Below are positions 7,529 to 55,636 of a stretch of DNA of 64,000 nt, in pieces. The notes under the pieces are model-generated. The model was not told the DNA's origin, searched no databases, and saw only the letters and a program-made list of their open reading frames with translations. The position numbers were made by a program, and so were the translations under genes. The stretch is from Geomonas paludis (lineage in GTDB: Bacteria; Desulfobacterota; Desulfuromonadia; Geobacterales; Geobacteraceae). Location: NCBI RefSeq assembly GCF_014193585.1, contig NZ_BLXY01000001.1:230033-294032 (forward strand), written 5' to 3'. Within the stretch, counting starts at the first letter, position 1. The number at the start of each line of letters is the position of its first letter.

Positions 7529-7534
7529 TCGCTT

Positions 7535-7651: not shown

Positions 7652-7673
7652 GCATGGGATAGGAGAATGATTG

Positions 7674-7865
7674 ATGGGAGATAAAGAGAAGTGTGAGCAG
7701 CCGGCGCGGCACAGGACGCACATGTGCAAGCTGAAGAAGGATGGCCGGATGGAAGAGTTCGAGCGGCACAGTGCCAAGCCGATCGTGTATTGCAACAAGT
7801 GCAAGGTGCAGGCGGACGACCCCTTGGTGGTCTGCAACCCCAGGGGCCTCAAGGTCGCCCGTTAA
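7674..7865 (+). CDS. Small Cys/His-rich protein, paralogue of the protein at 17561
   Basis: 63 aa; ATG at 7674 with AGGAG eight to nine bases upstream. It shares a clear pattern with the 59-aa protein at 17561-17740: C-x-x-P-x-RH-x2-HMC-x-LK-x2-GR-x-EE-x3-HSA-x-P, then C-N-x-C, A-D and C-N-P-R. All five Cys and three His are kept, which suggests a bound metal, probably zinc. No known function. It is convergent with the porin gene nine bases away. Confidence 0.8.
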   Translation: MGDKEKCEQPARHRTHMCKLKKDGRMEEFERHSAKPIVYCNKCKVQADDPLVVCNPRGLKVAR

Positions 7866-7874
7866 AATCCCCGC

Positions 7875-9098: not shown

Positions 9099-9110
9099 AT
9101 CGAGATCCCC

Positions 9111-9557: not shown

Positions 9558-9775
9558 GCAGCACCTCCCATGGTTTCTATTCACATAAAAGCGTTTACTG
9601 GCATAAATCAGCCTTGAGACTCTATCGGCTGACATAAGAAGGACTTTAAGACAGATTGTTAAAAGGTTACTGTTGGCTGACTCAAATTAACACACAATAT
9701 CAATAATGCAATAGACAATAAAGCACGGTGATTGAGTCATGAGGCTATGAGAGAGGAGTCAGAGGCAGGAAGTTT

Positions 9776-9806
9776 CCCTCCCCCTGTTGGCAAGGGGGAG
9801 GGGAGG
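9776..9806 (-). terminator. Possible hairpin terminator after kbl
   Basis: CCTCCCCCT and AAGGGGGAGG arms form a GC-rich stem just after the kbl stop. The T-run is absent, so it may be a palindromic repeat or an mRNA-end stabiliser and not a classic terminator. Confidence 0.4.
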
Positions 9807-9816
9807 AAAAGCATGC

Positions 9817-39211: not shown

Positions 39212-39288
39212 GCGCTCGTAGCTCAGCTGGATAGAGCAACGGACTACGAATCCGTAGGTCGGGAGTTCGAATCTCTCCGAGCGCGCCA
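39212..39288 (+). tRNA. tRNA-Arg (anticodon ACG), integration target
   Basis: Acceptor GCGCTCG/CGAGCGC, anticodon ACG in GACTACGAATC, CCA encoded. The gene is intact. Its 3' 45 bases plus one more are duplicated at 55591-55636, the far end of the genomic island. Confidence 0.97.
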
Positions 39289-39289
39289 T
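39244..39289. repeat. attL of the genomic island, 46-bp direct repeat
   Basis: From the anticodon to the first base past CCA of the tRNA-Arg; perfect match to 55591-55636. The integrase gene lies just inside this end. Confidence 0.93.
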
Positions 39290-39297
39290 ACAAAGAG

Positions 39298-39325
39298 GGG
39301 CCTGACAAAATTGTCAGGCCCTTTC
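39298..39325 (+). terminator. Rho-independent terminator after tRNA-Arg
   Basis: GGGCCTGACA and TGTCAGGCCC (39298-39321) then TTTCATTTT. It lies inside the island edge, so the element supplies a terminator to the tRNA it occupies. Confidence 0.85.
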
Positions 39326-39444
39326 ATTTTAAGAACTTACCTTCGTCAGACTCGCCGCAAGCACCAGAAAAAAAGACTGCCCTTCCGCACCAGGCGGAAG
39401 GGCACTATTGTCTCTTCGGTCCAACTACGGGCCAGGCCTTGTAG

Positions 39445-39837
39445 CTAGTGTCCCAAAGCCACTAAACCCTCCAATCTAGCTCTGACCTCAGCAGAGAGCC
39501 ACGGCTCGTCTCTCACGAACAGGCAAGGCCCGCCAGCGTTGTTGGTGCTCCAGAAGACGAAGAAGTAGCCGTCCTCCATGTTTGCCACTTCGCACCAGTT
39601 CCACTCTTCGCCTAGCAAGTCCACTGACCCGCAATCGTCGAAGGATACCTTCCTCGGATCATCTCCTTCTTCCAACACGTACCAGTTGCCACCAAGGAGG
39701 CTATCAAACTCTTCCTCCATCCGGCGCACAAGGATTTTGTCATGGCCATGGCAGAGAGCCGCCTTTTCTTCCATGATCTTCCTCAGTGGCCCCTCCGGTA
39801 TCTTCTTTACATCCCTTAGGCTTCTTATAGTTATCAT
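39445..39837 (-). CDS. Hypothetical island protein, related to the protein at 42400
   Basis: 130 aa from the ATG at 39837 with CAGGAG six bases ahead; a GTG at 39903 is an alternative. Soluble and acidic. The C-terminal part (FFVFWSTNNAGGPCLFVRDEPWL) aligns with the 123-aa protein at 42400-42771 (FLSCWLANNQYGLTLIVPDENWL), sharing W-x-x-NN-x-x-G and a final D/E-x-WL. It is the last island gene before attL. Function unknown. Confidence 0.65.
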   Translation of the reverse strand: MITIRSLRDVKKIPEGPLRKIMEEKAALCHGHDKILVRRMEEEFDSLLGGNWYVLEEGDDPRKVSFDDCGSVDLLGEEWNWCEVANMEDGYFFVFWSTNNAGGPCLFVRDEPWLSAEVRARLEGLVALGH

Positions 39838-39916
39838 GGCTAGCTCCTGTTGGTAGACCAAGTACGCGAAAGCCCCATGCACCGGGCATGGGACTTCCTT
39901 CACGTTTCACCTGCCT

Positions 39917-41137
39917 CTAAGCTGCTATGTCCGGAAACAACTTCGCCTGCGCATCTCCTACCGTCTTGGCCACAATCTCGCTTGCACTGCGAAGGGTGTT
40001 CTGCTGCAGGTGAGCGTAAGCCTTCTGGGTGACCGCTACAGTGGAGTGTCCTAGCAAGTCCTTGACTTGGTAAAGGTCCACACCGGCGTTCACTGCCAAG
40101 GAGGCAAACGAGCGGCGTAGGTCATGCGGGCGGAGGTCTGAGATGCCAGCCAGTGCCATCGCTCGGGCCATGGCCTTTCGTACGTCCACCAGGTGTCCAG
40201 CACCTCGACGAGCTGGAAACAACCATTGGCAGTGAGGATCAGCTTGTTCCTTCATCTTGAGCAGAAGGTTCAGCGCTGCACTGTTGAGTACAACTGTCCT
40301 TCCGCGCCCAGCTTTTGTCTTAGTCAGCCAAGCTGTAGCTGAGTCGAGATTGACATCACTCCATCGGAGGCTGAACAACTCCATCCGTCTGAGTCCCGTG
40401 AGTAACAGCAGGATGATGGCGTTTGCTGTCGTCCTCCCAGCTTCCGCATTAACTGCAACGATAAAACGAGTCAGTTCGTCACCTGACAGAAAACGTTGTC
40501 GTGCGTCAGCTTCTGGAAGCTTCTTGATACCCCTCGCAGGGTTTTCCTTCACAAGCCCGTTCTGAATGGCAAGTTTGAACATCCCAGACAGTAAGGCAAG
40601 GTAGCGGTTGGCAGTCCCTGGAGCAGCCCTCAGGCCGATGGCTGTGTGCAATTTCATCACGTCTCCAGTGGTGATCTCGTTGATCGGGATACGACCAATC
40701 GTAGCCTTGATGTCCCGACGAATCTTGGACTCATCATCCTTCCACGACCGCTTATGTAGCTTGGCATAAGGGAGGTAGGTCTCCACTGCAAACTCCGAGA
40801 GAGTGGGAACGTTCCGCCGGATCTGTCTTTGATTGGCTGGGTCTAGGTCACGGGCCAGCATGTTCTTGTGCTCATGGACCATGTGTCGCGCATCCTGCAC
40901 GCTCACACTCGGGTACTCTCCCAGCTTGAGCGCCTTCTTCCTGCCCCGGAAGCGGTAGCGGTGCCAGAAGTACTTCCGGCCCGACTTGCTCACCGCCAGC
41001 TTCAGCCCGACCACCTCCGTGTCGCTGTACTCAGCCATGGCAGAAGGTGAATCGCTGTCATGGGGGGGGAGTGCATCAATCTGTCGCTGACTGAACCGGA
41101 ACTGCCTGGATGTTGCGGTTTCTCTTTCATGTTGCAT
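39917..41137 (-). CDS. int: Tyrosine recombinase (phage-type integrase)
   Basis: 406 aa from the ATG at about 41137, which follows GGAGGAGACAGAGG. N-terminal arm-binding domain with the DUF4102-like GLKLAVSKSGRKYFWHRYRFRGRKKALKLGEYPSVSVQDAR, a core-binding SAM-like domain (about 110-195) and the catalytic domain with R in TGLRRMEL, H-x-x-R in HDLRRSF, H in LLGHSTVAVTQ and the nucleophile Y in KAYAHL. This P4-like class integrates into tRNA 3' ends, matching the 46-bp attL/attR at tRNA-Arg. Confidence 0.96.
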   Translation of the reverse strand: MQHERETATSRQFRFSQRQIDALPPHDSDSPSAMAEYSDTEVVGLKLAVSKSGRKYFWHRYRFRGRKKALKLGEYPSVSVQDARHMVHEHKNMLARDLDPANQRQIRRNVPTLSEFAVETYLPYAKLHKRSWKDDESKIRRDIKATIGRIPINEITTGDVMKLHTAIGLRAAPGTANRYLALLSGMFKLAIQNGLVKENPARGIKKLPEADARQRFLSGDELTRFIVAVNAEAGRTTANAIILLLLTGLRRMELFSLRWSDVNLDSATAWLTKTKAGRGRTVVLNSAALNLLLKMKEQADPHCQWLFPARRGAGHLVDVRKAMARAMALAGISDLRPHDLRRSFASLAVNAGVDLYQVKDLLGHSTVAVTQKAYAHLQQNTLRSASEIVAKTVGDAQAKLFPDIAA

Positions 41138-41408
41138 CCTCTGTCTCCTCCTTCGCCGGGACGCAAAAAGGGCGAAGGTTTCCCTTCGCCCATAGGACCG
41201 TTTTCCGGTCACCGGTCATGTTGTCCGTTGGTTGATTTCTGCTGTGGTAGGTCCTACAAGGTATTGTTCGTAGAATCTTGAAAACTACGGTCCGCTGACG
41301 GTCCGTAAGTGGGTTTTGGGCAGAAAAGCGGCGGGTAAGATTCCCTCGGAGGCTACGAGGCAGGAAAGTCTTGCGGGTGGTTTAGTGCCGAAGATCAGGG
41401 GGGAGTGG

Positions 41409-41660
41409 TCAAAGGTGCCGGACTATCTCCCACTGGTCCAGGGCAAGATTCAACAGCTCGTGCTCATCCAGGTAGTGGCCAAAGACCGCCTGCACTTCGT
41501 CTCGGGCCAGATGCAGGTCTTCAACGGTTAGGCGCAGGGAATCTTCCCGCAGCCTCCGAACGATTGCCGCCAACAGGTCACGCATGGTGACGACATAGAC
41601 GACTTCGCTGGGGTCGGGGAGCTTCCCGCACAATGTGGTCACGATTTCCTCAGGTACCAT
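41409..41660 (-). CDS. Hypothetical island protein
   Basis: 83 aa; ATG after AGGAGGAGTGAT. Mostly helical and Leu-rich (MRDLLAAIVRRLREDSLRLTVEDLHLARDEVQAVF), no signal or membrane segment. Last gene of the four-gene minus-strand operon that begins at 42771. Family not recognised. Confidence 0.6.
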   Translation of the reverse strand: MVPEEIVTTLCGKLPDPSEVVYVVTMRDLLAAIVRRLREDSLRLTVEDLHLARDEVQAVFGHYLDEHELLNLALDQWEIVRHL

Positions 41661-41670
41661 ATCACTCCTC

Positions 41671-42066
41671 CTAGAAGGGTTCTGCCGAGACGGTGTAGAC
41701 CCCCATCTCGTAGTAAGCGATAAAGTTACTCTCCCAGAGGCGGAAGAGTTCCCGGACTGCCTGGATAGGGAACTCCCGCCCTAGGTGCTGGAAGAGGCCG
41801 AGCGAGAAGTCAAAGTCGATCTCTTTGACCAACTCGCAGTAGGGAAGGCTTCCGTAGTAGGCGAAGTCGGTCACGTACTGGATGCTTCCGTCAGGAGCGA
41901 CTGCAACCTCCACCCGATGAAAGCCGCCCGTTTCGGGTGAGTAGTTCGGGTCGCGGAAGGAAAGAACCATCCCGGTAGCAGTGGGCATGGCAGACAGCTC
42001 TTGCTCAATGATGGCGACGAGCTTGCTGCTCAACCGCCAAGAGAGGAAGTCGATACGAACCTTCAT
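41671..42066 (-). CDS. DUF2787 family protein
   Basis: 131 aa; ATG after AAGGAGAAAGACC. Motifs of DUF2787: FRDPNYSPETGGFHRVEVAV, YVTDFAYYGSLPYCELVKEIDFDFSLGLFQ, and LFRLWESNFIAYYEMGVYTVS. The family is common on integrating elements and conjugative plasmids and has no known function. Overlaps the upstream YkvA-like gene by four bases. Confidence 0.85.
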   Translation of the reverse strand: MKVRIDFLSWRLSSKLVAIIEQELSAMPTATGMVLSFRDPNYSPETGGFHRVEVAVAPDGSIQYVTDFAYYGSLPYCELVKEIDFDFSLGLFQHLGREFPIQAVRELFRLWESNFIAYYEMGVYTVSAEPF

Positions 42067-42410
42067 GGTCTTTCTCCTTGTACGCTGACCTTTGGCCGCC
42101 ACCTCTTCGCTTGTTGTCGCAGTCCCTCAGAGATGTGCTGGCGTAGTGAAAGAAGAACGCTGGTTACGGCGGCAAAGTCGTCGGTGAAGCCGAACGGCAT
42201 GGGATCGGGAAGTAGGTCGAAGGGGAAGATGACGTACCCCAGCACCCCGACGATCAGCAGCTTTACCATCGGTGGGGTGTCAGGGTCACGGAGAAGCAGG
42301 AGCAGGATGATGACAGCTTCCCGTAGGGAATCAGTCAGTTTTCCCATCTTTCGGTGCATCGCGGAGTCAGAGTAGTGACGGCGAAAGTTGGCGAACCGGT
42401 CAGTGGACAT
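42063..42410 (-). CDS. YkvA-like protein (DUF1232)
   Basis: 115 aa. The DUF1232 core is VKLLIVGVLGYVIFPFDLLPDPMPFGFTDDFAAV, a short hydrophobic hairpin with the fixed P-x-D-L-x-PD motif. Flanks are basic. Membrane-associated protein of unknown role, often found in mobile or accessory regions. It overlaps both neighbours, so the operon is translationally coupled. Confidence 0.88.
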   Translation of the reverse strand: MSTDRFANFRRHYSDSAMHRKMGKLTDSLREAVIILLLLLRDPDTPPMVKLLIVGVLGYVIFPFDLLPDPMPFGFTDDFAAVTSVLLSLRQHISEGLRQQAKRWRPKVSVQGERP

Positions 42411-42771
42411 TGGTAACTCCTAGTTTTTCGATGAGAAGGGCACGAAAGGTAAGATCGAGCCAATTCTCGTCGGGCACGATCAGTGTCAGGCCGTACTGGT
42501 TGTTCGCAAGCCAGCAGCTCAGGAAACACCCTGTTTCCTTGTCGACCATGGCCCCCTCCAGACGCGTCTCGGCCCATGGTCGTCCCATCAGTTCCAGTGC
42601 GTCGGCATCTGTTGTCTTCTCCGTGACGAGGACGACAAAGCCGCAGTCGTCGGGGGGGTAGTCGTCTCCGTAGGCGTCGAGTAGGCTACGAACGGCGCGG
42701 GTGACTGCCCGGCGGTGTTTCGGTGGAAGTTGAGCCTGTGCAACATCGGCGAGAGAGCTGAAAGTAAGCAT
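42400..42771 (-). CDS. Hypothetical island protein, related to the protein at 39445
   Basis: 123 aa; ATG after GGAGGAACA. First gene of the minus-strand operon 42771 to 41409. The C-terminal half shares the W-x-x-NN-x-x-G ... P-D-E-x-WL pattern with the 130-aa protein at 39445-39837, suggesting an old duplication inside the island. No known domain. Confidence 0.65.
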   Translation of the reverse strand: MLTFSSLADVAQAQLPPKHRRAVTRAVRSLLDAYGDDYPPDDCGFVVLVTEKTTDADALELMGRPWAETRLEGAMVDKETGCFLSCWLANNQYGLTLIVPDENWLDLTFRALLIEKLGVTNVH

Positions 42772-43050
42772 TGTTCCTCCTCGGAAAGGGTGTAGTGTCT
42801 GCCGAAGAGGGAATATTCACTTGATTCCGAAGGTTGATTCGGGCGGATGTTCTTCCGACGTGCGCGTTTTTCCGGTGGGGCCGGTGGGGTCTGGGGGGCA
42901 GCCCCCGGTCCCCGGTGCCCCCGGTTCGTTCGGTGTAGCTTCGTGCTTCGTGGTGTGAAAACTTCAGCAAACGACTGCAAGAAGCTGGAAAACATGAAAA
43001 AAATCTGATATATTCCGCGCGCTCCACGAAAACGTTTACAGAGGTGTGCA
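42772..43050. promoter_or_regulatory. Divergent control region with G-rich and CCCCGGT repeats
   Basis: Separates the leftward small-gene operon from the rightward modification gene. It has a 17-bp G-rich motif GGGGCCGGTGGGGTCTG (42877-42893) and CCCCGGTCCCCGGT (42903-42916). The first recurs at 45211-45227 and in variant form near 51655; the second recurs exactly at 54943-54956. Promoters are expected here but not resolved. Confidence 0.5.
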
Positions 43051-46000
43051 ATGGCTAGGAGGAAGGCAACAGAAGAACCGGCAGAGGCAAGGATTGCCGA
43101 CTATAGATACAACGATAGCAAGCGGAGGAACATCCCCCCTGCGGGGCTTGCGGCACAAGGAAAGGTCGCCGAAAGCAACCGGATCGAGTACGCCTACAAC
43201 CCCCACCTGCCGCCGGTGCTGAGGACTGACCCGACCGGATCAGCAGACTGCCTGCCGGAACTGCTGGCGACTGCAAGGACTCGGGCACTGACAGCAGAGG
43301 AAGCCCGGATACTGGCGGAGTCTCTGAGGCACCGGGAGCCGTGGCTTGAGTGGTCAGGGAAGCGAGAGAAGAAGGGTTTTGCTGTTGAGCCGGTCGCCTT
43401 GCACATTCATGAACGTATCTCCGCTCAGGCGATCACCAAGATTGCGGCACGAGAGAACGTACAGCGGGACTTGTTTGCTGACCCACAGTTGGACTACCAC
43501 AAGGCAGTGCAGTTCTACCAGCATGACGTGGACTGGGCCAACAGGATGATCCTTGGCGATTCCCTCCAAGTGATGGCGTCCCTTGCCCGTCGCGAAGACG
43601 TGGCGGGGAAAGTTCAGATGATCTACATGGACCCACCCTATGGCATCAAGTTCGCCTCGAACTTCCAGCCGGAGATCGGCAAGCGGGATGTAAAAGACAA
43701 AGCCAGTGACCTCACTCGTGAGCCCGAGATGGTCAAGGCATACAGAGACACTTGGACTCTTGGTGTTCATTCATACCTAGCATACCTGAGGGACCGGCTT
43801 ATTCTGTCGAGGGAGCTACTTGCTGACAGAGGAAGTATCTTTGTGCAGATCTCAGACGAAAACCTGCATCGAGTAAGGATGCTCCTGGATGAGACTTTTG
43901 GCTCAAGCAACTTTGTGGCTGTCATAACGGTGAAAAAAACCGCAGCTCAAACCGACCAGTACCTTCCAAGTTCTTGCGACTATCTCCTCTGGTACGCAAA
44001 AGATAAAGAACAGCTAAAGTTTCGCCCTCTTTTCCTGGACAAGTCGGAAGGTACTGCCTTAGCCAGTCAGTACAAGTGGGCCTTCTCTACAAGCGGTGAG
44101 TTAGTTCGCCAGTCACTTCTCGAAGGAAGGTCTGATCTTGACGTTTTCCGGCTGTGCAGACCAGACAATCTGACGTCAAGCCATGAGTATTCTGAAGGAA
44201 AGGTGCCCGTAGAATATCGTGGTGGATACTACACTCCTGGACCGCGTTACTGGACAACAAGCCCGAAAGGTTTCGACAGACTACGAAGTGCAGCAAGACT
44301 CACTGTCGTCGGTAAAACCCTTAGTTACCTTAGGTTCCTAGACGATTACCCTTGCGCACCGTTATTAAACGTTTGGACTGACACCGGAACCGGTGGCTAC
44401 GGAGATGAAAGGTACTATGTCGTCCAGACAACATCTAAGATTGTAGAGCGATGCCTGCTCATGACCACCGACCCCGGTGATCTTGTGCTTGACCCGACAT
44501 GTGGTAGCGGAACAACAGCATACGTTGCGGAATCCTGGGGGCGTCGGTGGATTACCATCGACACCAGCCGTGTGGCCTTGTCATTGGCCCGTCAGCGGTT
44601 GATGACGGCGTCCTTCCCCTTCTACAGAGTCAAGAACAACGGCCAGGAAGAGACTGCCAATCCTGCAACAGGTTTCGCATACAAAACAGTTCCCCACATA
44701 ACACTGAAGAGCATAGCTCAGAACGCAGCACTGGACCCGATCTTTGCGCGGCATAACACCATACTCGATGAGAAGTTGACATATCTTAACGCAGCACTTT
44801 CTACTGTGACACCAGAGCTACATCGGAAGCTGGCAGAGAAACTGGCCAACAAAGAGAAGCTGGAAGGTAAAAAGAGCATCACAGATGCCGACCTCCGGCG
44901 ATGGCAGCTCCCCAGGGATTCTTGGCAGGAGTGGGAGGTTCCGTTCGACACCGATCTTGAGTGGCCAAAACCATTGAAAGATGCCTTGGAAGCATATCGT
45001 GCTGCATGGCGCGCCAAGATGGAGGAAGTAAACGACTGCATCAAGAAGAACGCGGCACAGGAAGATCTTGTTGATCAACCAGAACCTGTGAAAGGCGTTG
45101 TGCGGGTATCCGGCCCGTTCACGATGGAGGCGGTCATGCCTGTGGCAGAATCCCTCGACTGCGACACCCCCATCGGGGGCGAACCGGATGAGTTAGCAAC
45201 TTTCGGCGCTGGGGCCGGTGGGGTCTGTGTGTCGCCTGGGGCAAGTGACCCGGTCAACGCCGAAGCCTTCCTTGACAGGATGCTGCACCTGCTGCGAAAC
45301 GATGGCGTCCGGTTCCCAAACAACAAGAGCATGAAGTTCTCCCGCCTGGACACGTACAACGGCGACTACCTCCATGCCGAAGGGGAGTGGGCTAACGGAG
45401 ACGGTGTGACGCGCACGGTGGCAGTATCTTTCGGACCGCAGTTCGGACCGGTGACCGCCTTCCAGGTGGAGAACGCGCTTCCGACCGCCAGCCGTAGAGG
45501 CTTCGAGGATCTTGTCTTCGCAGGGTTCTCCTTCGACGCTGCCGCGCAAGCCATCATCCAGGACGACCCGAACCCACGGGTCCGCTCCCATCTCGCCCAC
45601 ATCCGCCCGGACGTGAACATGGGCGAGTTGCTGAAGGAAACGCCGAACAGCCAGCTCTTCACGGTCTTCGGTTCCCCTCGCACCGACATCACCACCACCA
45701 AAGACGGACAGTACGTGGTCGAGATGCAGGGGGTGGACATCTACAACCCCGTCGAGAACACAATCATCCCCACCAACGCCGACAAGGTCGCAGCATGGTT
45801 CCTCGACAGCGACTACGACGGTCAGACCTTCTGCATCACTCAGGCATTCTTCCCCGACCGGACCGCCTGGGACAAGCTGGCGAAGGCCATGAAGGGGGTC
45901 ATCGACGAGGCGCGCTTCGCGGCACTGTCGGGCACCAAGTCGCTTCCCTTCCCGGCCGGGAAGTACAAGCGGGCAGCCGTCAAAGTCATCGACCCACGGG

Positions 46001-46056
46001 GGAACGAGGTGCTGCGGGTCCACCGTTTGGGAGCGGACGGGGTGAGCTATGTCTGA
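43051..46056 (+). CDS. Type III-like DNA methyltransferase (Mod), long form
   Basis: 1001 aa; ATG after CAGAGGTGTGCA. Amino-methyltransferase of the beta class: catalytic DPPYG at 194-198 precedes the SAM motif DPTCGSGTT near 480. Typical Mod proteins have 500-700 aa. This one has about 160 extra N-terminal residues and about 300 extra C-terminal residues of unknown fold from about 700. The region between the motifs should hold the target-recognition part. It would methylate adenine or N4-cytosine in an asymmetric site. The Res gene overlaps its end by eight bases. Confidence 0.9.
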   Translation: MARRKATEEPAEARIADYRYNDSKRRNIPPAGLAAQGKVAESNRIEYAYNPHLPPVLRTDPTGSADCLPELLATARTRALTAEEARILAESLRHREPWLEWSGKREKKGFAVEPVALHIHERISAQAITKIAARENVQRDLFADPQLDYHKAVQFYQHDVDWANRMILGDSLQVMASLARREDVAGKVQMIYMDPPYGIKFASNFQPEIGKRDVKDKASDLTREPEMVKAYRDTWTLGVHSYLAYLRDRLILSRELLADRGSIFVQISDENLHRVRMLLDETFGSSNFVAVITVKKTAAQTDQYLPSSCDYLLWYAKDKEQLKFRPLFLDKSEGTALASQYKWAFSTSGELVRQSLLEGRSDLDVFRLCRPDNLTSSHEYSEGKVPVEYRGGYYTPGPRYWTTSPKGFDRLRSAARLTVVGKTLSYLRFLDDYPCAPLLNVWTDTGTGGYGDERYYVVQTTSKIVERCLLMTTDPGDLVLDPTCGSGTTAYVAESWGRRWITIDTSRVALSLARQRLMTASFPFYRVKNNGQEETANPATGFAYKTVPHITLKSIAQNAALDPIFARHNTILDEKLTYLNAALSTVTPELHRKLAEKLANKEKLEGKKSITDADLRRWQLPRDSWQEWEVPFDTDLEWPKPLKDALEAYRAAWRAKMEEVNDCIKKNAAQEDLVDQPEPVKGVVRVSGPFTMEAVMPVAESLDCDTPIGGEPDELATFGAGAGGVCVSPGASDPVNAEAFLDRMLHLLRNDGVRFPNNKSMKFSRLDTYNGDYLHAEGEWANGDGVTRTVAVSFGPQFGPVTAFQVENALPTASRRGFEDLVFAGFSFDAAAQAIIQDDPNPRVRSHLAHIRPDVNMGELLKETPNSQLFTVFGSPRTDITTTKDGQYVVEMQGVDIYNPVENTIIPTNADKVAAWFLDSDYDGQTFCITQAFFPDRTAWDKLAKAMKGVIDEARFAALSGTKSLPFPAGKYKRAAVKVIDPRGNEVLRVHRLGADGVSYV

Positions 46057-49000
46057 CCCGAAACAGCAAGACATCCCGATCCAGCCGGTAAGCAGGCCGA
46101 TCCTGTGCAGCCCGTACGTTGAGCCGAAAGCGCACTGGGTGTACGACACCCAGACCGGAGCAGCCACAGAAACGCCGGGAAGACGTCCCGCAAGCTACTG
46201 GTATAAGACGCAGAAGACGGGCAGCAGCCAGATGTCCTTGTCATTTCTCGCGGAAGAGGAGCGGGACGATCTTCCGCTGATAAATGTCCTGAGGGATGAC
46301 GTACGGCGCTGGCGAGACGCGAAGTACGAAGGCGCGACGGCCGTCACAAAGCAGCTTCTCGCCCACTGGAGCCGGGAGGATCGTCCCCGGAGGCTCTTCT
46401 TCTGTCAACGGGAAGCGGTAGAGACGGTCATTTACCTGACCGAGATTTTGGGGTCAGGCAAGAAACCGCGCTGGACTCCGAAGCTGGCGATGGACGACTT
46501 CCACCGCCTGAGCAGAGGTGACAAGCCTTCGTTTGTGCCGCACGAGCAAGAGATTTTCCCCACACTCGTGGACAAGCCGAACGAGGCAGGACTTGCAGCG
46601 CTGACGCGCTACGGCAGCAAGATGGCGACCGGCAGCGGAAAGACGGTTGTCATGTCCATGCTGGTTGCATGGGCGTTCTGCAACCGTGGCAGAGTTCCGG
46701 GAGACGAACGGTTTCCGGCAGCGGCGCTGATCGTGTGCCCGAACCTGACCGTCAAGGAACGTCTACAGGTGCTACGGCCAGACGACGACGACAACTACTA
46801 CGCCGCCTTCGACATCGTGCCGTCGCAACTCATGCCAGAGATAAAGAAGGGCAAAGTGCTGGTGACCAACTGGCACCAGTTCGCCCCCGAGTCTCCCCAC
46901 GTGGAGGCCGGGAAGAGCTACGTGGTTGTCAACAAGGGAGAGGAAAGCCCAGAAGCCTTTGCCCGCAGGGTGCTTGGCGACCTGTACGACCGGGCACCGA
47001 TCATGGTGCTGAACGACGAAGCCCACCACGCCTATCGCCCTGCCCCCATCCCAGAGGATGGGAAGCTGACTGCAGAGGAGAAGGCGGAGCGCGAAGAGGC
47101 CACGGTGTGGATCTCCGGCCTGGACAGGATCAACCAGGCCTGCGGCGTAAAGTTCTGTGTGGACCTGTCGGCAACTCCCTTCTATCTTCAGGGAAGCGGG
47201 TACGTTGAGGGCTCCCCCTTCCCGTGGCTGGTGAGCGACTTTGGTCTCGTTGACGCCATCGAGTCGGGCATCGTGAAAATTCCCCGCCTGCCGGTCAGCG
47301 ACACCACCGGAAGGCCGGAACCCAAGTACTTCAAGATTTGGGACTACATCAAGGACAATCTCCAGCCGGGCGAGAAGCTTCCCGGTGGCAAGCCGAAACC
47401 CGAAGTCGTGTGGCGGGAGGCGGAAGACGCCCTGCAGACGCTTGCCAGCCAGTGGAAGGAGCGGTACGAGCAGATAGCGGAGGTTACCCCGGACAAGGAC
47501 ACCACCCCACCGGTAATGATAATCGTGTGCGACAACACCGACATCGCCGGGCTCTTCTACAGGTACATCTCGGGGGAAGAGGTTGTCGAGGTCGTGGAAG
47601 CCGACGACGAGGATGAAGAAGCATCCTCCTCGAAGAAAAAGAAAAAGAAGAAGCAGAAGACCGTCTACGGTACCGGGAAGGTCTTTCCCGAACTCTTCTC
47701 CAACAGGGAAGGTTTCCGCCCGACCTTGCGGATAGATTCCAAGCTCTTGGCCGAGGCGGAAAGCGAAGACCCCAACGCCAACAAGAAGGACGTAGCAGAA
47801 CATCTGCGGGAGATTGTGGCCACGGTTGGCAAACCGGGGCAGCCCGGCGAACAGGTCCGCTGTGTCGTTTCGGTGCAGATGTTAACTGAGGGATGGGACG
47901 CCAACAACGTGACCCACATCCTGGGCCTGCGGGCCTTCGGAAGCCAACTCCTGTGCGAACAGGTGGTAGGGCGCGGACTGCGGAGGATGGACTACACCCC
48001 GGACCCGGAAACGGGGCTCCTGACGGAAGAGTACGTGGACGTGTACGGCATCCCCTTCTCGGTGATCCCCTTCAAGGGAAGGAAGATTGCTGGGCCGCCG
48101 CCCGACGACCGGCCGAAGAACCACGTCAAGGCCATACCGGCACGGAAGGACTACGAGATTCGCTTCCCGGTGGTTGAAGGTTACGCCTTTGCCCTCAACA
48201 AGAACCTCATAAAGGCAGACATCGGCAAGATGGAAGCCTTAAAGATAGAACCGTCGCAGACGCCGACAGCTGTTTTCGTGAAGCCTCAGGTCGGTTACCA
48301 GATGGGGAAGCCGACCGGCACTGGTGGCTTTGAGATGCAGGAGCAGGACCGACAGGAGTACTACGAGAGCACGCACCTCCAGACGATCAAGTTCGAGATT
48401 GCCCGGCAGGTTGTGGCAGGCCTGACCGAAGGCATCGCTGGTACCGACGCCAAGCTGAAGCTGCGCGGCAGGCACCAGCTGTTCCCGCAGGTGCTGCGAC
48501 TGGTGGAAGAGTACGTTGCGCGGAAGGTGAACTTCCACGATGCGGACCCCCGAGAGCTGGGCCTGGAGACTTACGCACGCCGGACGGTGGAGCGGCTGAT
48601 TGACGCCATCGAACCGAACGACGAGCAGGGCGAGCCACCTTTGATGCCTATCCTGAACCGCTACAAGAAAATCGGTTCGACAAAGGACGTTGACTTCAAG
48701 ACCGTCAAGCCCTGTTTCGGTACGACCAAGAGCCACATCAACCTAGTGGCGAGTGACACGGCGACATGGGAGCAGTCGGCCGCTTTCCGGCTGGAGCAGG
48801 CAGCAAACCGGGGCATCGTCAGCTTCTACGCCAAGAACGACCACATGGAGTTCGTCATCCCCTACGAGTACCTGGGTGTAAGCCACGCCTACACCCCGGA
48901 CTTTGTGGTGCGCCTGCAAAACGGGGCAACGCTGGTGCTGGAGATAAAGGGGCACGAGGACGACCAGGACCGGGCCAAACATCAGGCCGCTAAGCGGTGG

Positions 49001-49198
49001 GTGTCGGCCGTCAACAACTGGGGCGAGTTGGGCCGGTGGCAGTTTCACGTGTGTAAGGACCCGCAGATGCTCGTGCGGGAGCTGGAGTGGCTGGCCGGTC
49101 AGAGGCAGGAGCAGGGGCCGTCTGCACCGGAACCAAAGCAGGTGGCAACACCAGAGACAGTAACGCAGGTTTGTTTCGCTGCAGGCTCAGAAGCCTGA
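46049..49198 (+). CDS. Type III-like restriction enzyme, SF2 helicase with C-terminal nuclease (Res)
   Basis: 1049 aa. SF2 motifs: Walker A in ATGSGKTVV (about 192), DEAH box in LNDEAHHAY (about 323), SATPF (about 373), motif V-VI in TEGWDANNVTHILGLRAFGSQLLCEQVVGRGLRR (about 612-645). A C-terminal PD-(D/E)-x-K nuclease appears at about 949-972 (TPDFVVRL then LEIKG). A Lys-rich run (seven Lys) interrupts the helicase near 530. Overlaps mod, so the two form the Mod-Res pair that cuts unmethylated DNA. It resembles the group of restriction helicases often seen with over-long Mod proteins. Confidence 0.92.
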   Translation: MSDPKQQDIPIQPVSRPILCSPYVEPKAHWVYDTQTGAATETPGRRPASYWYKTQKTGSSQMSLSFLAEEERDDLPLINVLRDDVRRWRDAKYEGATAVTKQLLAHWSREDRPRRLFFCQREAVETVIYLTEILGSGKKPRWTPKLAMDDFHRLSRGDKPSFVPHEQEIFPTLVDKPNEAGLAALTRYGSKMATGSGKTVVMSMLVAWAFCNRGRVPGDERFPAAALIVCPNLTVKERLQVLRPDDDDNYYAAFDIVPSQLMPEIKKGKVLVTNWHQFAPESPHVEAGKSYVVVNKGEESPEAFARRVLGDLYDRAPIMVLNDEAHHAYRPAPIPEDGKLTAEEKAEREEATVWISGLDRINQACGVKFCVDLSATPFYLQGSGYVEGSPFPWLVSDFGLVDAIESGIVKIPRLPVSDTTGRPEPKYFKIWDYIKDNLQPGEKLPGGKPKPEVVWREAEDALQTLASQWKERYEQIAEVTPDKDTTPPVMIIVCDNTDIAGLFYRYISGEEVVEVVEADDEDEEASSSKKKKKKKQKTVYGTGKVFPELFSNREGFRPTLRIDSKLLAEAESEDPNANKKDVAEHLREIVATVGKPGQPGEQVRCVVSVQMLTEGWDANNVTHILGLRAFGSQLLCEQVVGRGLRRMDYTPDPETGLLTEEYVDVYGIPFSVIPFKGRKIAGPPPDDRPKNHVKAIPARKDYEIRFPVVEGYAFALNKNLIKADIGKMEALKIEPSQTPTAVFVKPQVGYQMGKPTGTGGFEMQEQDRQEYYESTHLQTIKFEIARQVVAGLTEGIAGTDAKLKLRGRHQLFPQVLRLVEEYVARKVNFHDADPRELGLETYARRTVERLIDAIEPNDEQGEPPLMPILNRYKKIGSTKDVDFKTVKPCFGTTKSHINLVASDTATWEQSAAFRLEQAANRGIVSFYAKNDHMEFVIPYEYLGVSHAYTPDFVVRLQNGATLVLEIKGHEDDQDRAKHQAAKRWVSAVNNWGELGRWQFHVCKDPQMLVRELEWLAGQRQEQGPSAPEPKQVATPETVTQVCFAAGSEA

Positions 49199-49221
49199 TG
49201 TACCAAGGGCACGGGGGGAAA

Positions 49222-51528
49222 ATGATTCGGAAATTCAATGTACTGAGAAACATCGGCCAGTTCGACTCAGTGACCGTTCCCCAGACCGCTCAACATCAGC
49301 GGTTAACGGTGATCTATGCTGAGAATGGTAGAGGAAAAACGACCCTCACCGCGATACTTCGCTCTTACGCCACTGGCAGTCCTCTTCCTATCCGTGAACG
49401 AAGACGACTAGGAGCTGCTCAATCCCCACATATCGTCCTCGATTGTACTGCGGCCCCTCAGCCAGCTATTTTCCAGAATGATACTTGGAGCAGGACAAGA
49501 GACAACATCGCTGTCTTCGATGACAACTTCGTCAACGAAAATATTTATTCAGGTCTTTCCGTCGACCCCGAGCATCGGCAGAACCTTCATGATCTCATCA
49601 TTGGAGCTCAAGGTGTGACGCTCAACCAACAACTTCAAGATTTGGTTGGAGAAGTTGAGGCGCATAACCGGGCCATCAGAATGGCAGCGGAACAGATTCC
49701 TGCTGCAGAACTTAGAGGCCTTTCGGTTGATGCTTTTTGTGCTCTTCCGCCGGAACCGAACGTTGATGCTGCGATTGAGGCAGCGGAGCGTGCTCTTGCT
49801 GCTGCGCGAGAGCAGGCGCCGGTCCGAACCACTGGTCTGTTGCAAGAATTAAGAATCCAAGCAGTGGACGTTGGACCTGTGACAGAGTCTCTGCAACGGG
49901 GTTTGGACGATCTTGACATTGCTGCTGCAGCCCGAGTCCAAGCGCATTTAGCGGAGCTAGGCGAAGGAGGGGAGGCGTGGGTTGCAGACGGTGTTCACCG
50001 GATGCAGGATGATGATCAGCCCGGCCACTCATGTCCTTTCTGTGCTCAAGATCTTGGAGGGTCCCCTGTCCTTCATCACTACAGGGCGTTCTTCGGTGAT
50101 GCCTATCGAGACCTGAAGGCCAGTGTGGCCGAGTCACTAGCAGCGGCTACTCGTTCCTTCAGACAGGACTTTTTGCTCGAATTAGAGAGGGCTGTGGGGG
50201 GTAACGCGGAACGGAAACAATTTTGGTCACGCTTCTGTGATGTTCCCGACATAGAGTTAGATACCGAAGACATTGGCCGTCATTGGGCAGTAGTGGCAGA
50301 GGCTGTCTTAGCGGCACTCAGGGCTAAACAGGCATCGCCCTTGGAGGCCTTGGAACTTCCACGGGAAGTTTTTGATTCCATTGCCGTACTGCAAGAAAAA
50401 GGACGACAGGTTACAGCGATCAATGCTGAGATTGTTGCAGCAAACGAGGCGATTAGAGCCGTCAAAGCTGCGGCTGCAGGAGCTGACCCTGCGGCCTTGC
50501 ACAGCGAGCTGCAAAGACTTCTTGCGGCGAAGGCACGCCATACCCCTGCGATCTCCTTACTGTGTGACGCTTATCTCGCCGAGAAGGCAGCAAAATTACT
50601 GACTGAACAAAGACGGGATCAAGCAAGAACTGCCCTAACCAACTACAGGACCCAAATCTTTCCCACGTATCAGACCGCGATAAACCGTTACCTTCAGCTG
50701 TTCGGCGCGGGGTTCCGCCTTGAGAGGATTCAGGCTGTCAACAACCGGGGAGGGTCCGCGTGCAGTTACGACGTTGTCATTAACAACACGGCAGTTTCCA
50801 TTGCTGGTAGAGCCGGCGCACCGGACTCTCACGGTTTCCATAACACTCTCAGTGCTGGTGATCGTAACACTCTTGCCTTGGCTTTCTTTTTTGCATCGCT
50901 GGACCAGTGCCCACGGCTCAACGACAAGGTGGTAGTGATTGACGATCCAGTTTCCAGTCTTGATGATCATCGTTGCCTTACAACGACACAAGAGATCCGG
51001 AGGTTATCACGCCGAGCTGCACAGGTCATTGTCTTGTCGCACAGCAAGCCATTCTTGTGCACCCTCTGGGAAGGGGTTCCGCAAGCTGAGCGGGCTGATC
51101 GCGCTGCGCTGGAACTTATACGGCAAGGGTCGGGGTCGGTTCTACGGGAGTGGGATGTAACTAGGGAGTGCGTGAGCGAACATGACCGCCGTCACGCCCT
51201 ACTCCGAGAGTATCTCGAAGGAAACGGCGGGAATGGTCGGGTAGTCGCAGAAGCGATCAGACCTCTTCTTGAATCATTCCTGCGCGTTGCGTCCCCTCAG
51301 TACTTCATTCCTGGAATGCTGCTCGGTCCGTTTCGTGGACTCTGTGAACAACGAGTAGGGGGGGCGCAGGAGATTCTCGATCAACATCATCTCGACGAAC
51401 TGCGTGATCTTATCGAGTACTCCAACCGGTTTCATCATGACACTAACGCGGCATGGCAAGCCGAGGTTGTAAATGATGCAGAATTACTAGGCTTCGTAAG
51501 GAGAACTTTGGCGTTTGCACGACGTTGA
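49222..51528 (+). CDS. RloC/PrrC-like ATPase with zinc-hook CxxC, candidate anticodon nuclease
   Basis: 768 aa from the ATG at 49222 after GGGGGGAAA, 23 bases past res. ABC/SMC-type ATPase of the AAA_13 (PrrC-like) group: Walker A ENGRGKTT (about 34-41), coiled coils with CPFC at 271-274 like the RloC/Rad50 zinc hook, signature LSAGDRNTLALAFF (about 543), Walker B VVVIDDPVSSLDD (about 570) and a switch His in LSHSK. In the C-terminus R680-P-L-L-E684 and H738/H739 match the order of the Arg-x3-Glu...His triad of PrrC/RloC nucleases, with wider spacing to His. Nuclease activity is inferred. Confidence 0.8.
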   Translation: MIRKFNVLRNIGQFDSVTVPQTAQHQRLTVIYAENGRGKTTLTAILRSYATGSPLPIRERRRLGAAQSPHIVLDCTAAPQPAIFQNDTWSRTRDNIAVFDDNFVNENIYSGLSVDPEHRQNLHDLIIGAQGVTLNQQLQDLVGEVEAHNRAIRMAAEQIPAAELRGLSVDAFCALPPEPNVDAAIEAAERALAAAREQAPVRTTGLLQELRIQAVDVGPVTESLQRGLDDLDIAAAARVQAHLAELGEGGEAWVADGVHRMQDDDQPGHSCPFCAQDLGGSPVLHHYRAFFGDAYRDLKASVAESLAAATRSFRQDFLLELERAVGGNAERKQFWSRFCDVPDIELDTEDIGRHWAVVAEAVLAALRAKQASPLEALELPREVFDSIAVLQEKGRQVTAINAEIVAANEAIRAVKAAAAGADPAALHSELQRLLAAKARHTPAISLLCDAYLAEKAAKLLTEQRRDQARTALTNYRTQIFPTYQTAINRYLQLFGAGFRLERIQAVNNRGGSACSYDVVINNTAVSIAGRAGAPDSHGFHNTLSAGDRNTLALAFFFASLDQCPRLNDKVVVIDDPVSSLDDHRCLTTTQEIRRLSRRAAQVIVLSHSKPFLCTLWEGVPQAERADRAALELIRQGSGSVLREWDVTRECVSEHDRRHALLREYLEGNGGNGRVVAEAIRPLLESFLRVASPQYFIPGMLLGPFRGLCEQRVGGAQEILDQHHLDELRDLIEYSNRFHHDTNAAWQAEVVNDAELLGFVRRTLAFARR

Positions 51529-51748
51529 TCTACCTACTCATAGTGCAAGCAAAGAAGTCAGTGCCGAGCAACATGACTTTGGAGAATGCACGTAAGAGAC
51601 TAGCGCTCTCGCAGGTAGTTCTTCCTCTACGGCAGGTGCATCTTTTCCCTGTGGGGTCGGTGGGGACCGAGGACATGTTGTTCATCAGAAGAGAGGTCGG
51701 TGGCAGGAGCGTTGGCAGCTCCTGCCCCCAAACTCATCCCAGTGATAT

Positions 51749-52285
51749 TCACGCCCCCTGCTTTGTATGATTCCAGTGTTTTCGCACAGCGGCTGCAAAC
51801 CCATCTTCGAACTGTCGAAGATTGTGGCCAGGTACGCCCGTAACTATGCAGTTGCCGATCTTGATGTCGGGATCATTCCCCTGGTAACAAGAAGATTCGA
51901 TGGTTAAGTTGTGGTAAAAACTTTTTAGCTCTGCATCTGAGCCGAACTCGGCCGGATGCGTGACTTTCAGTTTCCCAGTGTAACGTTGGCCGTTGTTTTC
52001 GCACTGGTTGCACCAACTAACGTGCTGCTCAATCTGCTCGTTGGTTGTTAGTCGTTCCGCAGCGTTACGTAACGAAGTCGCACTTGTCGTTTTTGCCCAC
52101 TCTGCCCCTTCATACTCTCCTGCTTCCCATGGGGTGCCTGGTATCCACATTTTGCCATCCAACATGTAGAACGGTACCACCAGTTGCATCCCGGCCCCTC
52201 CTGCCATGTCGTGACCGGGAACTCTGGATGCACCTTTGTGCTTCTGCCTGGTGCTGGATTGCTGTTTCTTCCTATTACGTTTCAT
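51749..52285 (-). CDS. Hypothetical island protein
   Basis: 178 aa from the ATG at 52285 with AAAGGAG upstream. A very basic start (MKRNRKKQQSSTRQKHKG) is followed by a Met-rich stretch and a body with a C-x2-C pair (WCNQCENNG). It is last in the leftward operon that starts with the DUF927 gene. No family recognised; possibly nucleic-acid binding from its charge. Confidence 0.6.
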   Translation of the reverse strand: MKRNRKKQQSSTRQKHKGASRVPGHDMAGGAGMQLVVPFYMLDGKMWIPGTPWEAGEYEGAEWAKTTSATSLRNAAERLTTNEQIEQHVSWCNQCENNGQRYTGKLKVTHPAEFGSDAELKSFYHNLTIESSCYQGNDPDIKIGNCIVTGVPGHNLRQFEDGFAAAVRKHWNHTKQGA

Positions 52286-52423
52286 GGTTGAAACTCCTTT
52301 CGTAGTTGCTTGCTTTCTCTGAGGCTTCGTAGAGAGGTTGGTGCCGCCCATACCTGCTCTTCCGATGGGGTAACTGAGGACCGGGGCACTTCGTACCCGG
52401 CCCCCGGCCTCCCTGTGGTGGCG

Positions 52424-52798
52424 TCACTGTGTTTTTTTTGTCGGTTCACACTCAGCAGTCAGACAGCGCATACCCCGGTCCCAAAGTTTGATGTCTAGAC
52501 CGAAGTCGTCCTTCCAGCACAAGAATCCAGCTTTATCGAAGGTCTTTCCCTTCCAGGTAAGGCCGATGAAATCTACAATCTGATCATTCAACAGTCGCTG
52601 CATCTCATCGTCTGTGATGGTCTTCCGCCCCATGTTGGCAAACCTCCTCCTGTAGAAGCGAAAGTCGCAGGAGTTGTCGCGGAGTCCGTGACAGTAGAAG
52701 TTGTCGGTACCAGAGTACAGGGGTTGACAGCAGATAGGGCATTTCCCGACGACCCGTGGTGGAGTGTTGCCGGTTGGGGGGGGACGTAGTCTAGTCAT
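52424..52798 (-). CDS. Zinc-finger-containing island protein
   Basis: 124 aa from the ATG at 52798 with AAGGAG upstream; overlaps the end of the DUF927 gene by eight bases. A topoisomerase-type C4 zinc ribbon is evident: KCPICCQPLY, then YCHGL...NSCDFRFYRR. The remaining part includes DDEMQRLLNDQIVDFIGLTWKGKTFDKAGF, which resembles the KGKxFxA fold attached to topoisomerase fingers. Likely a DNA-binding accessory of the helicase. Confidence 0.7.
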   Translation of the reverse strand: MTRLRPPPTGNTPPRVVGKCPICCQPLYSGTDNFYCHGLRDNSCDFRFYRRRFANMGRKTITDDEMQRLLNDQIVDFIGLTWKGKTFDKAGFLCWKDDFGLDIKLWDRGMRCLTAECEPTKKTQ

Positions 52799-54638
52799 GA
52801 TGATCTCCTTGTTGTAGCTGGCTCTGTACTGCTGCAAACGAATCATCCCATTCCGGTTGGTCATCCCCCTCGACCTCCTCGTCCAAGATGACCCGTTTCA
52901 GTCCCAGTTCCGCAGTGAGGAATGCTGCACGGATCGCGTACAGATTCTCCTTCTTTCCGCCACTGGATGCCCTGGGAACCTTGATTGTCAGTCGTCCGGC
53001 TTCATGCGTTACGAGCATGCTGAGGTTACGGAGTTCCCTGGCAACATCGACCGGAGAACATTCTCCGCTGGCTGCCTGCAACTGGCTTGGGTAAAGAATA
53101 ATAAGGTCCCTTGACGGGTGACGAAAGCCAAGGCAGGTCTCTTCAGAGTGGTCTTCATCATCGGTAAGAGGGAAGGCGTCGATATTGTCCCGGAGGAAGG
53201 CCTGGAGTGCTGTCACCCCCTGAGTGATGTAGGCCTGGTTGTCTGCCTCCCGCAGCCATAGATTCCTGGCAAAGAATACAGCTTCCCGCACGTCATCCTG
53301 TGAGAAGGGAACAAGGCCAAAGTAGATGGCCAACTCCCCGGCCAGCCATGCCGCGCCCAGTCGTCGGAGCGCTCGGTGGTGTTCAGGTCGCATGTTAGGA
53401 AGGATCAGTTCCTGGACAAACTCCTCGTGACTCCGCTGGAGAGTCTCGACATCGAAGTTGGCCTGTTCCTCTGCCGCAAGATCAGCAAAAAGTGCTTCGA
53501 TGAACGCCGGGCCAAGGAGACCGTAACAGTCGGCACAGGAGGCTTTCAGATTTTCGGCAAACGCTGCCTTCGAAAGTCCGTTGGTTTCCTTAAAGATGTC
53601 ATCCCCGACGGGAAGTTCCAGGAACCTGACAAACTGACCCGCCATCGGCTTTCCTCCGGCGTTGACTATCATCTCGCGCAAAGTTTTTTCTCCTGAGGAG
53701 AGGATGCTGACAAACCAAGAACGCGTCATCTGAAGGTTACGCGTTGCAGTCATCGAGGCCTTGCCCCGCCCACCGCTGAAGAAGTAGAGAAGTGTGCCAA
53801 GATCACCGCTGAAACTGTCCAGCTCATCAAGAATCAATAGTTTTTCCGAGAACGCAGCGGCTAACCCCTCAGCCCCTCCCTGCGTCATGCTCCACCGCTG
53901 GATGTAGCTTTCTCGTGCCCTGTTCGGGTCGGTACCGATTCCGAACACACTCGCTGCCAGCTGCAACAAGGTAGTCTTTCCCCGTGAGGTGAAGGAGGAG
54001 AGGTGAAAGCCACCATTGTCAACACGTAGAATCCTTACCAGCACGCTGGCCAAGGCAATCAGAAGGGCCAAGATCAGCAGAGGATTGCCGATAGCCGGGC
54101 GCAACACGCGCTCCTCATACTCCTCCGGTGTTCCCTTCCAGCAGATTGCCGCCTCGGCTGGACAGTTCTGCTCAGGAATAAATCGGAATTTCTTTGCCTC
54201 CGGGCCGATAACAACACGTGGCGACAACACATAGTGACGAAGGTCGCTTGTTGCGCCCGTTTTCCTCGTCAGCACGATTCGGCTAGAGGGTTGGAAGCTG
54301 GCAAGATACTCCACTAGTGCTGCTTCCTTACCCGGAACGACAGCAAGTCCGGCGTCGGAAAGCATTTGAACCAAGGCTCCTCCCTTCTGAACGAGCAGGC
54401 GCTGAGGGACAAGCATCTCTTTCCTTTGCCCGTCAAAGTCACGGAACACGATGTTCCGGTACCATGTCCCTTCGCTGTCCACCTGAGCAAGGTCACTGAC
54501 GTAACACCACCCGGCCACCAACTCAGGGATAGTGCTGTCGATGCCCTTCGAGGTGTTGAGGGTTTTGATCTTGAAGACGCCGTACTCTTTCTTGAGATCG
54601 AAGCCTTCGGGAACTACGATTTTTGGTTTTGGTACCAT
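52791..54638 (-). CDS. DUF927 family ATPase/helicase
   Basis: 615 aa; ATG at 54638 after AAAGGAGGTTGTCC. The DUF927 core shows FHLSSFTSRGKTTLLQLAASVFG as Walker A, then LLILDELDSF as Walker B and YFFSGGRGKASMTATRNLQMTRSWFVSILSSGEKT as the sensor region. Proteins with this domain act as replicative helicases of integrated elements (for example in cassette chromosomes and P4-like satellites). No primase domain is seen. It heads a three-gene operon and suggests that the island can replicate after excision. Confidence 0.85.
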   Translation of the reverse strand: MVPKPKIVVPEGFDLKKEYGVFKIKTLNTSKGIDSTIPELVAGWCYVSDLAQVDSEGTWYRNIVFRDFDGQRKEMLVPQRLLVQKGGALVQMLSDAGLAVVPGKEAALVEYLASFQPSSRIVLTRKTGATSDLRHYVLSPRVVIGPEAKKFRFIPEQNCPAEAAICWKGTPEEYEERVLRPAIGNPLLILALLIALASVLVRILRVDNGGFHLSSFTSRGKTTLLQLAASVFGIGTDPNRARESYIQRWSMTQGGAEGLAAAFSEKLLILDELDSFSGDLGTLLYFFSGGRGKASMTATRNLQMTRSWFVSILSSGEKTLREMIVNAGGKPMAGQFVRFLELPVGDDIFKETNGLSKAAFAENLKASCADCYGLLGPAFIEALFADLAAEEQANFDVETLQRSHEEFVQELILPNMRPEHHRALRRLGAAWLAGELAIYFGLVPFSQDDVREAVFFARNLWLREADNQAYITQGVTALQAFLRDNIDAFPLTDDEDHSEETCLGFRHPSRDLIILYPSQLQAASGECSPVDVARELRNLSMLVTHEAGRLTIKVPRASSGGKKENLYAIRAAFLTAELGLKRVILDEEVEGDDQPEWDDSFAAVQSQLQQGDHHD

Positions 54639-55590
54639 GGACAACCTCCTTTGGTTTGATAGTGCCGGGAATAGCAACTATAGTGCCAATATAAACCGTG
54701 TAACTTGCCAGTATCATTACACTTTTTTAGCCCCACAGATTCAGTGTCCCACCTTCGAAACTAGGGCGACCATGGAAGTCGAGCACTCCCGCCTTGATTG
54801 GAATTGGTCAATGAGAAGCGTGGTGGTCAAATGGCTGAGCAGCATGGGTGTTTTCGCTCAACACACGCTGCTCTCTTCGTCTACTTTACAAGTGGAGAGA
54901 CTGGGGTACTGGGGTACTGGGGTCGCACCACTTGCGATTGATCCCCGGTCCCCGGTCATGGAGTACCAAGGATGATCTGCATCTTGAACGCGTACCCTGC
55001 GTGGTGGGGGCGATGGGGAAGTGCGGGTGCCGTGCAGTAGTGCGGTGCCGGTTCGGGTGGGTACGTTCAGAGCAAGCGGAGGCCGGAACGCGGAGTTCCG
55101 GCCCCACGCAACACTGGCCACCAGGGGTAAAGTTCCCCCTGCATCAGGGGCACGAGAGCGCGAAACTCAGACACCAAGCGTGGTTTTATTCAAGATTCAC
55201 ATGACCTGGCTTTCAGCCGGGAGCCTTCCGAGTCCTGGGATATCAGCAGCCGTACTAATGCTAAGGTGGGAGGTGCAACCTAGGAAAGAAACACAGGAAG
55301 AGAAGCATGGGCATGAAGCCCGTTTCGGAGACCCGAAGAGGGAACTTCGGTCCATCTACGGGTCAAGTGGGGGGGCTGGAAGGCCTCCGTAAACCGGATT
55401 TAATTGATTTTACAGAGGATTCCCACGATGCTCCCGGCTTGAGGCTCGGAAGTCGCAGATTCCCTCGGTTTTACTCAATTTTCGTCTTTTCTTGGCGACA
55501 GCTCGGTTTTGGTTGCAAAACGGATAAGTGTATGGTACAAGATGCGTTCTGACTTTCCGCGTAACACTTTACGCTTTCCGGAACGCGGGC
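54639..55590. other. Noncoding right arm of the island
   Basis: 952 bases without a supported gene. It contains three GGGGTACT units in tandem (54903-54926), CCCCGGTCCCCGGT (54943-54956), a GGCCGGAAC-N3-GAGTTCCGGCC hairpin near 55080-55105 and the structured stretch from 55200. The cluster of repeats beside a DUF927 helicase gene would suit a replication origin; this is inference. Confidence 0.45.
55205..55418 (+). ncRNA. Candidate structured RNA beside attR
   Basis: Four hairpins in about 210 bases: CCTGGCT/AGCCGGG (55205-55221, with a T-G pair that favours the plus strand), GGGC/GCCC (55309-55321), GACC-c-GAAG/CTTCGGTC (55330-55352) and CCTC-c-GTAAA/TTTAC-a-GAGG (55384-55418). The reading frames here have no ribosome site. 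It matches no RNA family I can name; small group II intron, omega-RNA-like and origin RNA are possible. Confidence 0.3.
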
Positions 55591-55636
55591 CTACGAATCC
55601 GTAGGTCGGGAGTTCGAATCTCTCCGAGCGCGCCAT
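55591..55636. repeat. attR of the genomic island, 46-bp direct repeat
   Basis: Perfect copy of the tRNA-Arg 3' part at 39244-39289, followed by GAGGGGTCAGG...CTGACCCC, the hairpin that originally followed this tRNA gene. Confidence 0.93.

Follow-up and report, generated by a model that had tools for sequence, protein, structure and literature searches.

An RloC anticodon nuclease as probable cargo beside a type III-like Mod-Res pair in a Geomonas paludis island

We analysed a 64,000-nucleotide stretch of the Geomonas paludis genome (contig NZ_BLXY01000001.1, positions 230,033 to 294,032; hereafter the window), in which genes for a type III-like DNA methyltransferase (Mod) and restriction subunit (Res) are followed by a gene for a zinc-hook ATPase. 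Motifs and predicted folds identify the ATPase as RloC, and a comparison of gene neighbourhoods shows the Mod-Res-RloC trio to be genuine but to have arisen as a single pairing rather than as a new, conserved system of three parts. We consider it fairly probable that RloC is a self-contained, second-line sensor of DNA ends, added as cargo beside an independent Mod-Res pair and not docked on Mod. The cassette itself is ordinary and not a new system; of mild interest is the partner-agnostic pattern in which the RloC clade adjoins restriction genes. The three genes lie on one strand, as a first-pass annotation had placed them, with an 8-base overlap between mod and res and a 23-base gap between res and the ATPase start codon. 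Coordinates are collected in Table 1.

Anatomy of the RloC ATPase

The open reading frame of the ATPase was listed as 49087-51528. We chose as its start the ATG at 49222, which has a Shine-Dalgarno-like GGGGGGAAA in front of it. The protein scored 107 bits against Pfam AAA_13, 213 bits against the PADLOC model PDC-S06 and 36 bits against the PADLOC PrrC model. It was aligned with its relatives, giving 88 sequences (the window protein, 80 encoded on genome contigs and 7 on plasmids). Walker A, signature, Walker B, D-loop and His switch were conserved over the alignment. In the window protein (768 aa) the hook motif is CPFC, residues 271-274, placed between long helices, and its CxxC was present in 88/88 sequences. 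The anticodon-nuclease triad, R680-x3-E684-x53-H738, was complete in 87 of the 88. The first-pass annotation had called the ATPase RloC/PrrC-like, and the intact ATPase and nuclease motifs bear this out.

The predicted structures point the same way. In the model of the whole ATPase (predicted local distance difference test score, pLDDT, 86) the head resembled Rad50/SMC at a Z of about 20-24. When the C-terminal 125 residues were modelled alone (pLDDT 91), the top 21 fold matches were almost wholly HEPN domains (Z 6.8-9.1 over 99-109 residues, root-mean-square deviation 3.0-4.3); Foldseek alone gave a weak match for this domain (2hsb, prob 0.97, E 0.7). The ATPase profile matched Rad50 heads in the PDB, and phmmer of the ATPase against the PDB returned one spurious match only. 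The fold searches brought up no solved PrrC or RloC structure, which is not evidence that none exists.

RloC has been defined by an ATP-binding cassette (ABC) ATPase, a CxxC hook and a C-terminal triad (Davidov and Kaufmann 2008, PMC2610378), and was placed among the HEPN nucleases by Anantharaman et al. (PMC3710099). Because the window protein has this anatomy and, in the model, this fold, we assign it to RloC. It shares with the known RloC proteins of Geobacillus kaustophilus and Acinetobacter baylyi the size class (658-897 aa), an ABC ATPase interrupted by a coiled coil that bears a CxxC hook, and the same C-terminal R-x3-E-...-H triad within a HEPN domain. It differs from known RloC in having His beside the triad His, where Ser is frequent, and from described RloC in its place behind a type III-like res gene. 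PrrC has a homologous ATPase and the same anticodon-nuclease logic, but is 341-416 aa long, has a PrrC box, is linked to hsd genes and lacks the zinc-hook insert, so that the 768-aa, hook-bearing window protein is not a PrrC. The partners differ as well, since PrrC is paired with EcoprrI, a type I restriction-modification (R-M) system, whereas the window partner is a Mod-Res pair of the BPTD_3080 type, for which there was no evidence of docking or silencing.

Distribution of the trio and the Mod C-terminal region

The first-pass annotation proposed the ATPase as a backup coupled to a type III-like enzyme and suggested a search for conserved three-gene neighbourhoods. We looked for such a neighbourhood from both sides and did not find it. 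None of the 87 ATPase relatives had both Mod and Res homologues nearby; 67 of them had at least 6.5 kb of upstream sequence, and 20 of the 80 genome loci had little. Conversely, no RloC-clade gene was found in the 42 Mod-Res loci that held both Mod and Res (46 were fetched for the family). Among 277 genomes of the class, the ATPase occurred in 4 and Mod in 31, and both only in the genome of the window. A homologous island in another bacterial family carries Mod-Res without the ATPase, which argues against a coupled guardian. Within the clade, the order Mod-Res-RloC was seen elsewhere only with other type III families (L125, L110); a more distant ATPase also adjoins a type III pair (L218), and in L104 a Res relative (35%) lies about 8 kb from the ATPase on the opposite strand. 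A weak match to the RloC profile (25 bits) in one Mod-Res locus (L229) was rejected, as the protein there, a Rad50-like ATPase of 1037 aa, has a CPLC hook but no anticodon-nuclease end. Nor is a link between RloC and type III R-M new, as had been suggested; it was reported in 2008, when 8 of 73 RloC were linked to type I or III R-M, one also with ArdC (PMC2610378).

Mod had also been read as over-long, with an unassigned C-terminus that might serve as a docking part for the ATPase. This was a misreading, as about 920-1100 aa is usual for the Mod family and the PADLOC profile is 983 aa long. The match to Mod extended beyond residue 900 in 39 of the 42 Mod-Res loci, none of which has RloC. Residues 688-987, the supposed docking region, were 82-96% identical in the RloC-less sister island, and many C-terminal residues were invariant across 17 Mods. 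Because the region is equally kept in loci that lack RloC, its sequence marks it as a trait of the Mod family, and docking of RloC on it was rejected.

Neighbours of the RloC clade and the coupling to restriction

We then considered which R-M genes adjoin the clade. RloC was found beside hsdS, hsdM or hsdR in seven loci (L055, L056, L057, L058, L065, L129, L044), and in L056, L058 and L065 it lies between hsdS and hsdR genes or their remnants, the position of prrC in ecoprrI. Type II partners were of the BsuBI/PstI (L042, L075, L077), PaeR7I (L043), XcyI (L085) and Eco29kI-like (L069) kinds, together with one type ISP protein, for which the 1628-aa gene of L128 is the probable source; we found no description of type II neighbours of RloC in the literature, with most subscription papers outside the search. 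Type III pairs adjoin the clade in L110 and L125. The R-M partners are unrelated, comprising type I, type II and three different type III families. Among loci with any R-M gene within 8 kb (n=34), RloC directly adjoined an R-M gene in 18, compared with 9.0 expected from random placement in the same gene lists (20,000 draws; P 0.00065, with related loci not independent). Placement of this clade beside restriction genes is therefore above chance, on adjacency labels that derive partly from homology to a small reference set and from Pfam tallies without a per-locus table.

On a quick tree of RloC, with SH-aLRT (an approximate likelihood-ratio test) as its only support measure, the well-supported branches force at least 6 changes of partner label for type I, at least 6 for type II and at least 3 for type III. 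Partner-type labels changed 16 times over the tree, compared with 18.5 in shuffles, which suggests only slight inheritance of partners. The tree and labels indicate that RloC has been recruited beside R-M genes repeatedly and in a partner-agnostic way.

Some single loci deserve mention. L125 (1313-10787) holds a tight run of four genes, coding for a DrmD-like helicase, Mod, Res and RloC, in which two junctions are 4-base overlaps and the remaining one is a gap of 3 bases; its Mod and Res have best PADLOC models that differ from those of the window pair, and the run is a candidate locus in which a true operon of type III genes and RloC could be tested. In Paracoccus (L120, 9090-9908, same as L046) a 272-aa C-terminal Res relic stands directly before an intact RloC. 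Anti-restriction genes for ArdC (3) and ArdA (2) were present among 72 direct downstream neighbours of RloC. A relative from the same genus, 60% identical and truncated to 246 aa (L214, 3511-4251), adjoins genes for a short Piwi protein (pAgo) and a SIR2 protein.

These neighbourhoods bear on how RloC might relate to Mod-Res. One model, taken from PrrC, is that Mod-Res binds and silences RloC, which is freed when phage proteins disable the enzyme. PrrC itself sets the precedent with a type I enzyme (review PMC12707154), the three loci with RloC between hsdS and hsdR repeat its gene order, and an ArdC or ArdA gene is the direct neighbour in five cases. We nevertheless regard such release as improbable, as the putative docking region of Mod is just as conserved without RloC, the partners are unrelated and include type II, intact RloC persists beside the Res relic, and AbaRloC needs no R-M protein for its silencing or its break-triggered activation (Klaiman et al. 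2013, PMC3874168).

Another account is plain co-location, in which RloC is one defence module and Mod-Res another; the two happen to share an island and a promoter and have no effect on each other. The failure of 87 ATPase relatives to keep Mod-Res, and of 42 Mod-Res loci to hold RloC, fits this account, as do the other cargo that the element carries elsewhere (a different type III system in L222, for example) and the pAgo and SIR2 genes beside the truncated relative. On the other hand, RloC directly adjoins R-M genes at twice the frequency given by random gene order, and tight overlaps of 4 bases are seen repeatedly, with HsdS as well as with Res. We hold co-location to be a possible but rather unlikely explanation.

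The reading that we favour is the self-contained DNA-end sensor. RloC would have been inserted as cargo after res in a tRNA-Arg-integrated island that already held an independent Mod-Res. In favour of this, the sister island lacks RloC and holds a PIN toxin gene at that place, where other Res relatives have MazE-PIN or NYN genes. Mod-Res would cut unmodified phage DNA; if phage survive, or if host or phage DNA is broken, free DNA ends would trigger RloC, the Rad50-like ATPase and zinc hook sensing the ends and switching on the C-terminal HEPN nuclease. The nuclease would then cut tRNA anticodons and translation would stop. Coupling would consist of shared transcription and a shared signal, broken DNA, with no docking site on Mod. 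Both tRNA cleavage and triggering by DNA breaks are here inferred from published work on RloC, in which linear DNA or double-strand breaks activated the enzyme and a host deficient in R-M still allowed activation by breaks (PMC3874168). Joint action of the window RloC with Mod-Res is likewise only inferred. Since the same clade adjoins unrelated type I, II and III enzymes, no common docking surface would be available; a protein that senses DNA ends could serve beside all of them. Such a sensor would also explain why an intact RloC stands beside a Res relic and why no Mod surface co-varies with RloC.

Several points weigh against this reading. The E-to-H spacing of the window RloC, 53, is one above the published 36-52 (PMC2610378). 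An R-M gene is absent next to about 69 of the 88 RloC relatives, so that any joint action of RloC and Mod-Res may be incidental. The adjacency to R-M genes could also reflect physical contact that tolerates many partners. More tentatively, the clade as a whole may be a restriction-type-agnostic guardian, recruited beside type I, II and III enzymes through the shared DNA-end signal to form functional two-layer systems without docking. Earlier descriptions of RloC give only rare links to R-M of type I or III, and a clade that adjoins type I, II and III restriction genes in separate events makes docking-free coupling testable.

The Mod-Res pair and its mobile island

Type III R-M systems methylate DNA and cleave it, with ATP, at two inversely oriented sites. 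Judged by sequence, the window pair is of this type, with a beta-class Mod, a recognition region between DPPY and FxGxG-type motifs, and a ResIII helicase with a nuclease. Mod matched PADLOC MTase_III PDLC03632 at 590 bits and also Pfam N6_N4_Mtase; its motifs DPPY (residues 194-197) and DPTCGSG (481-487) were invariant in 17 relatives, and the target-recognition region covers approximately residues 296-437 (window 43936-44361). Res matched NCBIfam NF046055, the BPTD_3080 family, at 989 bits against a cut-off of 800, and is built of a helicase and a C-terminal PD-(D/E)xK-like nuclease motif (TPDF...LEIK). This Res family is common: of the 395 genomes sampled from the same phylum, 54 have it. 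The pair shares with EcoP15I and EcoP1I the beta-class Mod, the ResIII helicase-nuclease and the overlapping genes. It differs from them in a Mod of about 1000 aa with a C-terminal region of its own and in a Res of the NF046055 family, which matched the PADLOC REase_III models weakly (38 bits). Searches of phage records with the ATPase and of viral contigs with Res gave no match.

Table 1. Features of the RloC-bearing island (window positions)
Feature	Coordinates	Strand	Basis or comparison
Mod (1001 aa), type III-like DNA methyltransferase of the beta class	43051..46056	+	PADLOC, Pfam
Res, type III-like restriction subunit, 1049 aa	46049..49198	+	NCBIfam NF046055, ResIII
RloC (768 aa), Rad50/SMC-like ABC ATPase that bears a CPFC zinc hook and ends in a HEPN anticodon-nuclease domain	49222..51528	+	AAA_13, PDC-S06, motifs, predicted folds
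Island between two tRNA-Arg(acg) genes	39289-55635
Left attachment site (att), the 3'-terminal 45 bp of the tRNA-Arg(acg) gene at 39212-39288	39244..39288	+	repeat of 55591-55635
Right att copy	55591..55635	+	repeat of 39244-39288
Tyrosine integrase	39917..41212	-	sequence inspection; 77% identical in sister island
DUF927 helicase-like gene of mobile element	52791..54677	-	Pfam DUF927, 152 bits; 76% identical in sister island
Breakpoint, last ~35 codons of res and 23-nt gap	49093..49221	+	sister-island homology ends here, resumes at 52841

In the same genus, at least 16 of 18 genomes have the two flanking tRNA-Arg genes side by side, as an empty site. The sister island (G153, L131), from a genome of the same taxonomic order but another family, is syntenic and lies at the same kind of tRNA-Arg site, and each att copy of the window matches its att at 97.8%. 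Mod is 74% and Res 95% identical between the two islands. In place of the RloC-bearing segment, 49092-52841, the sister island has 1.36 kb of DNA that holds a PIN_3 toxin gene. With the same Mod-Res and no RloC, the sister island is a ready-made paired control. The Mod recognition region is only 16-34% identical between the islands, compared with mostly 70-100% elsewhere; because this region appears exchanged, the two systems probably read different target sites.

The slot 3' of res varies among the nearest Res relatives, holding RloC in the window, PIN in L131, MazE-PIN on a Thermus plasmid, an NYN nuclease gene in L215 and, in L216, the gene of a large helicase that includes a DUF559 domain. 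Makarova et al. (2012, PMC3506569) described R-M loci of types I and III as carrying toxin-like genes that are interchangeable; the slot after res is the point of likeness, and the exchange of RloC and PIN is an instance within one island family. The toxins in this slot would suit an addiction role, in which loss of the island leaves host sites unmethylated, residual Res cuts the chromosome and the breaks trigger RloC, stopping growth; break-triggered RloC is known (PMC3874168). We consider this very improbable, since RloC has no antitoxin partner and often occurs without R-M.

A related DUF927 element (L222, 4009-9120) carries as cargo a different type III pair and a GIY-YIG-like gene. In L131 the PIN_3 gene (6851-7300) overlaps the 3' end of res (7290-10532), and the C-terminal tail of Res is swapped for an extension that may be an antitoxin-like piece.

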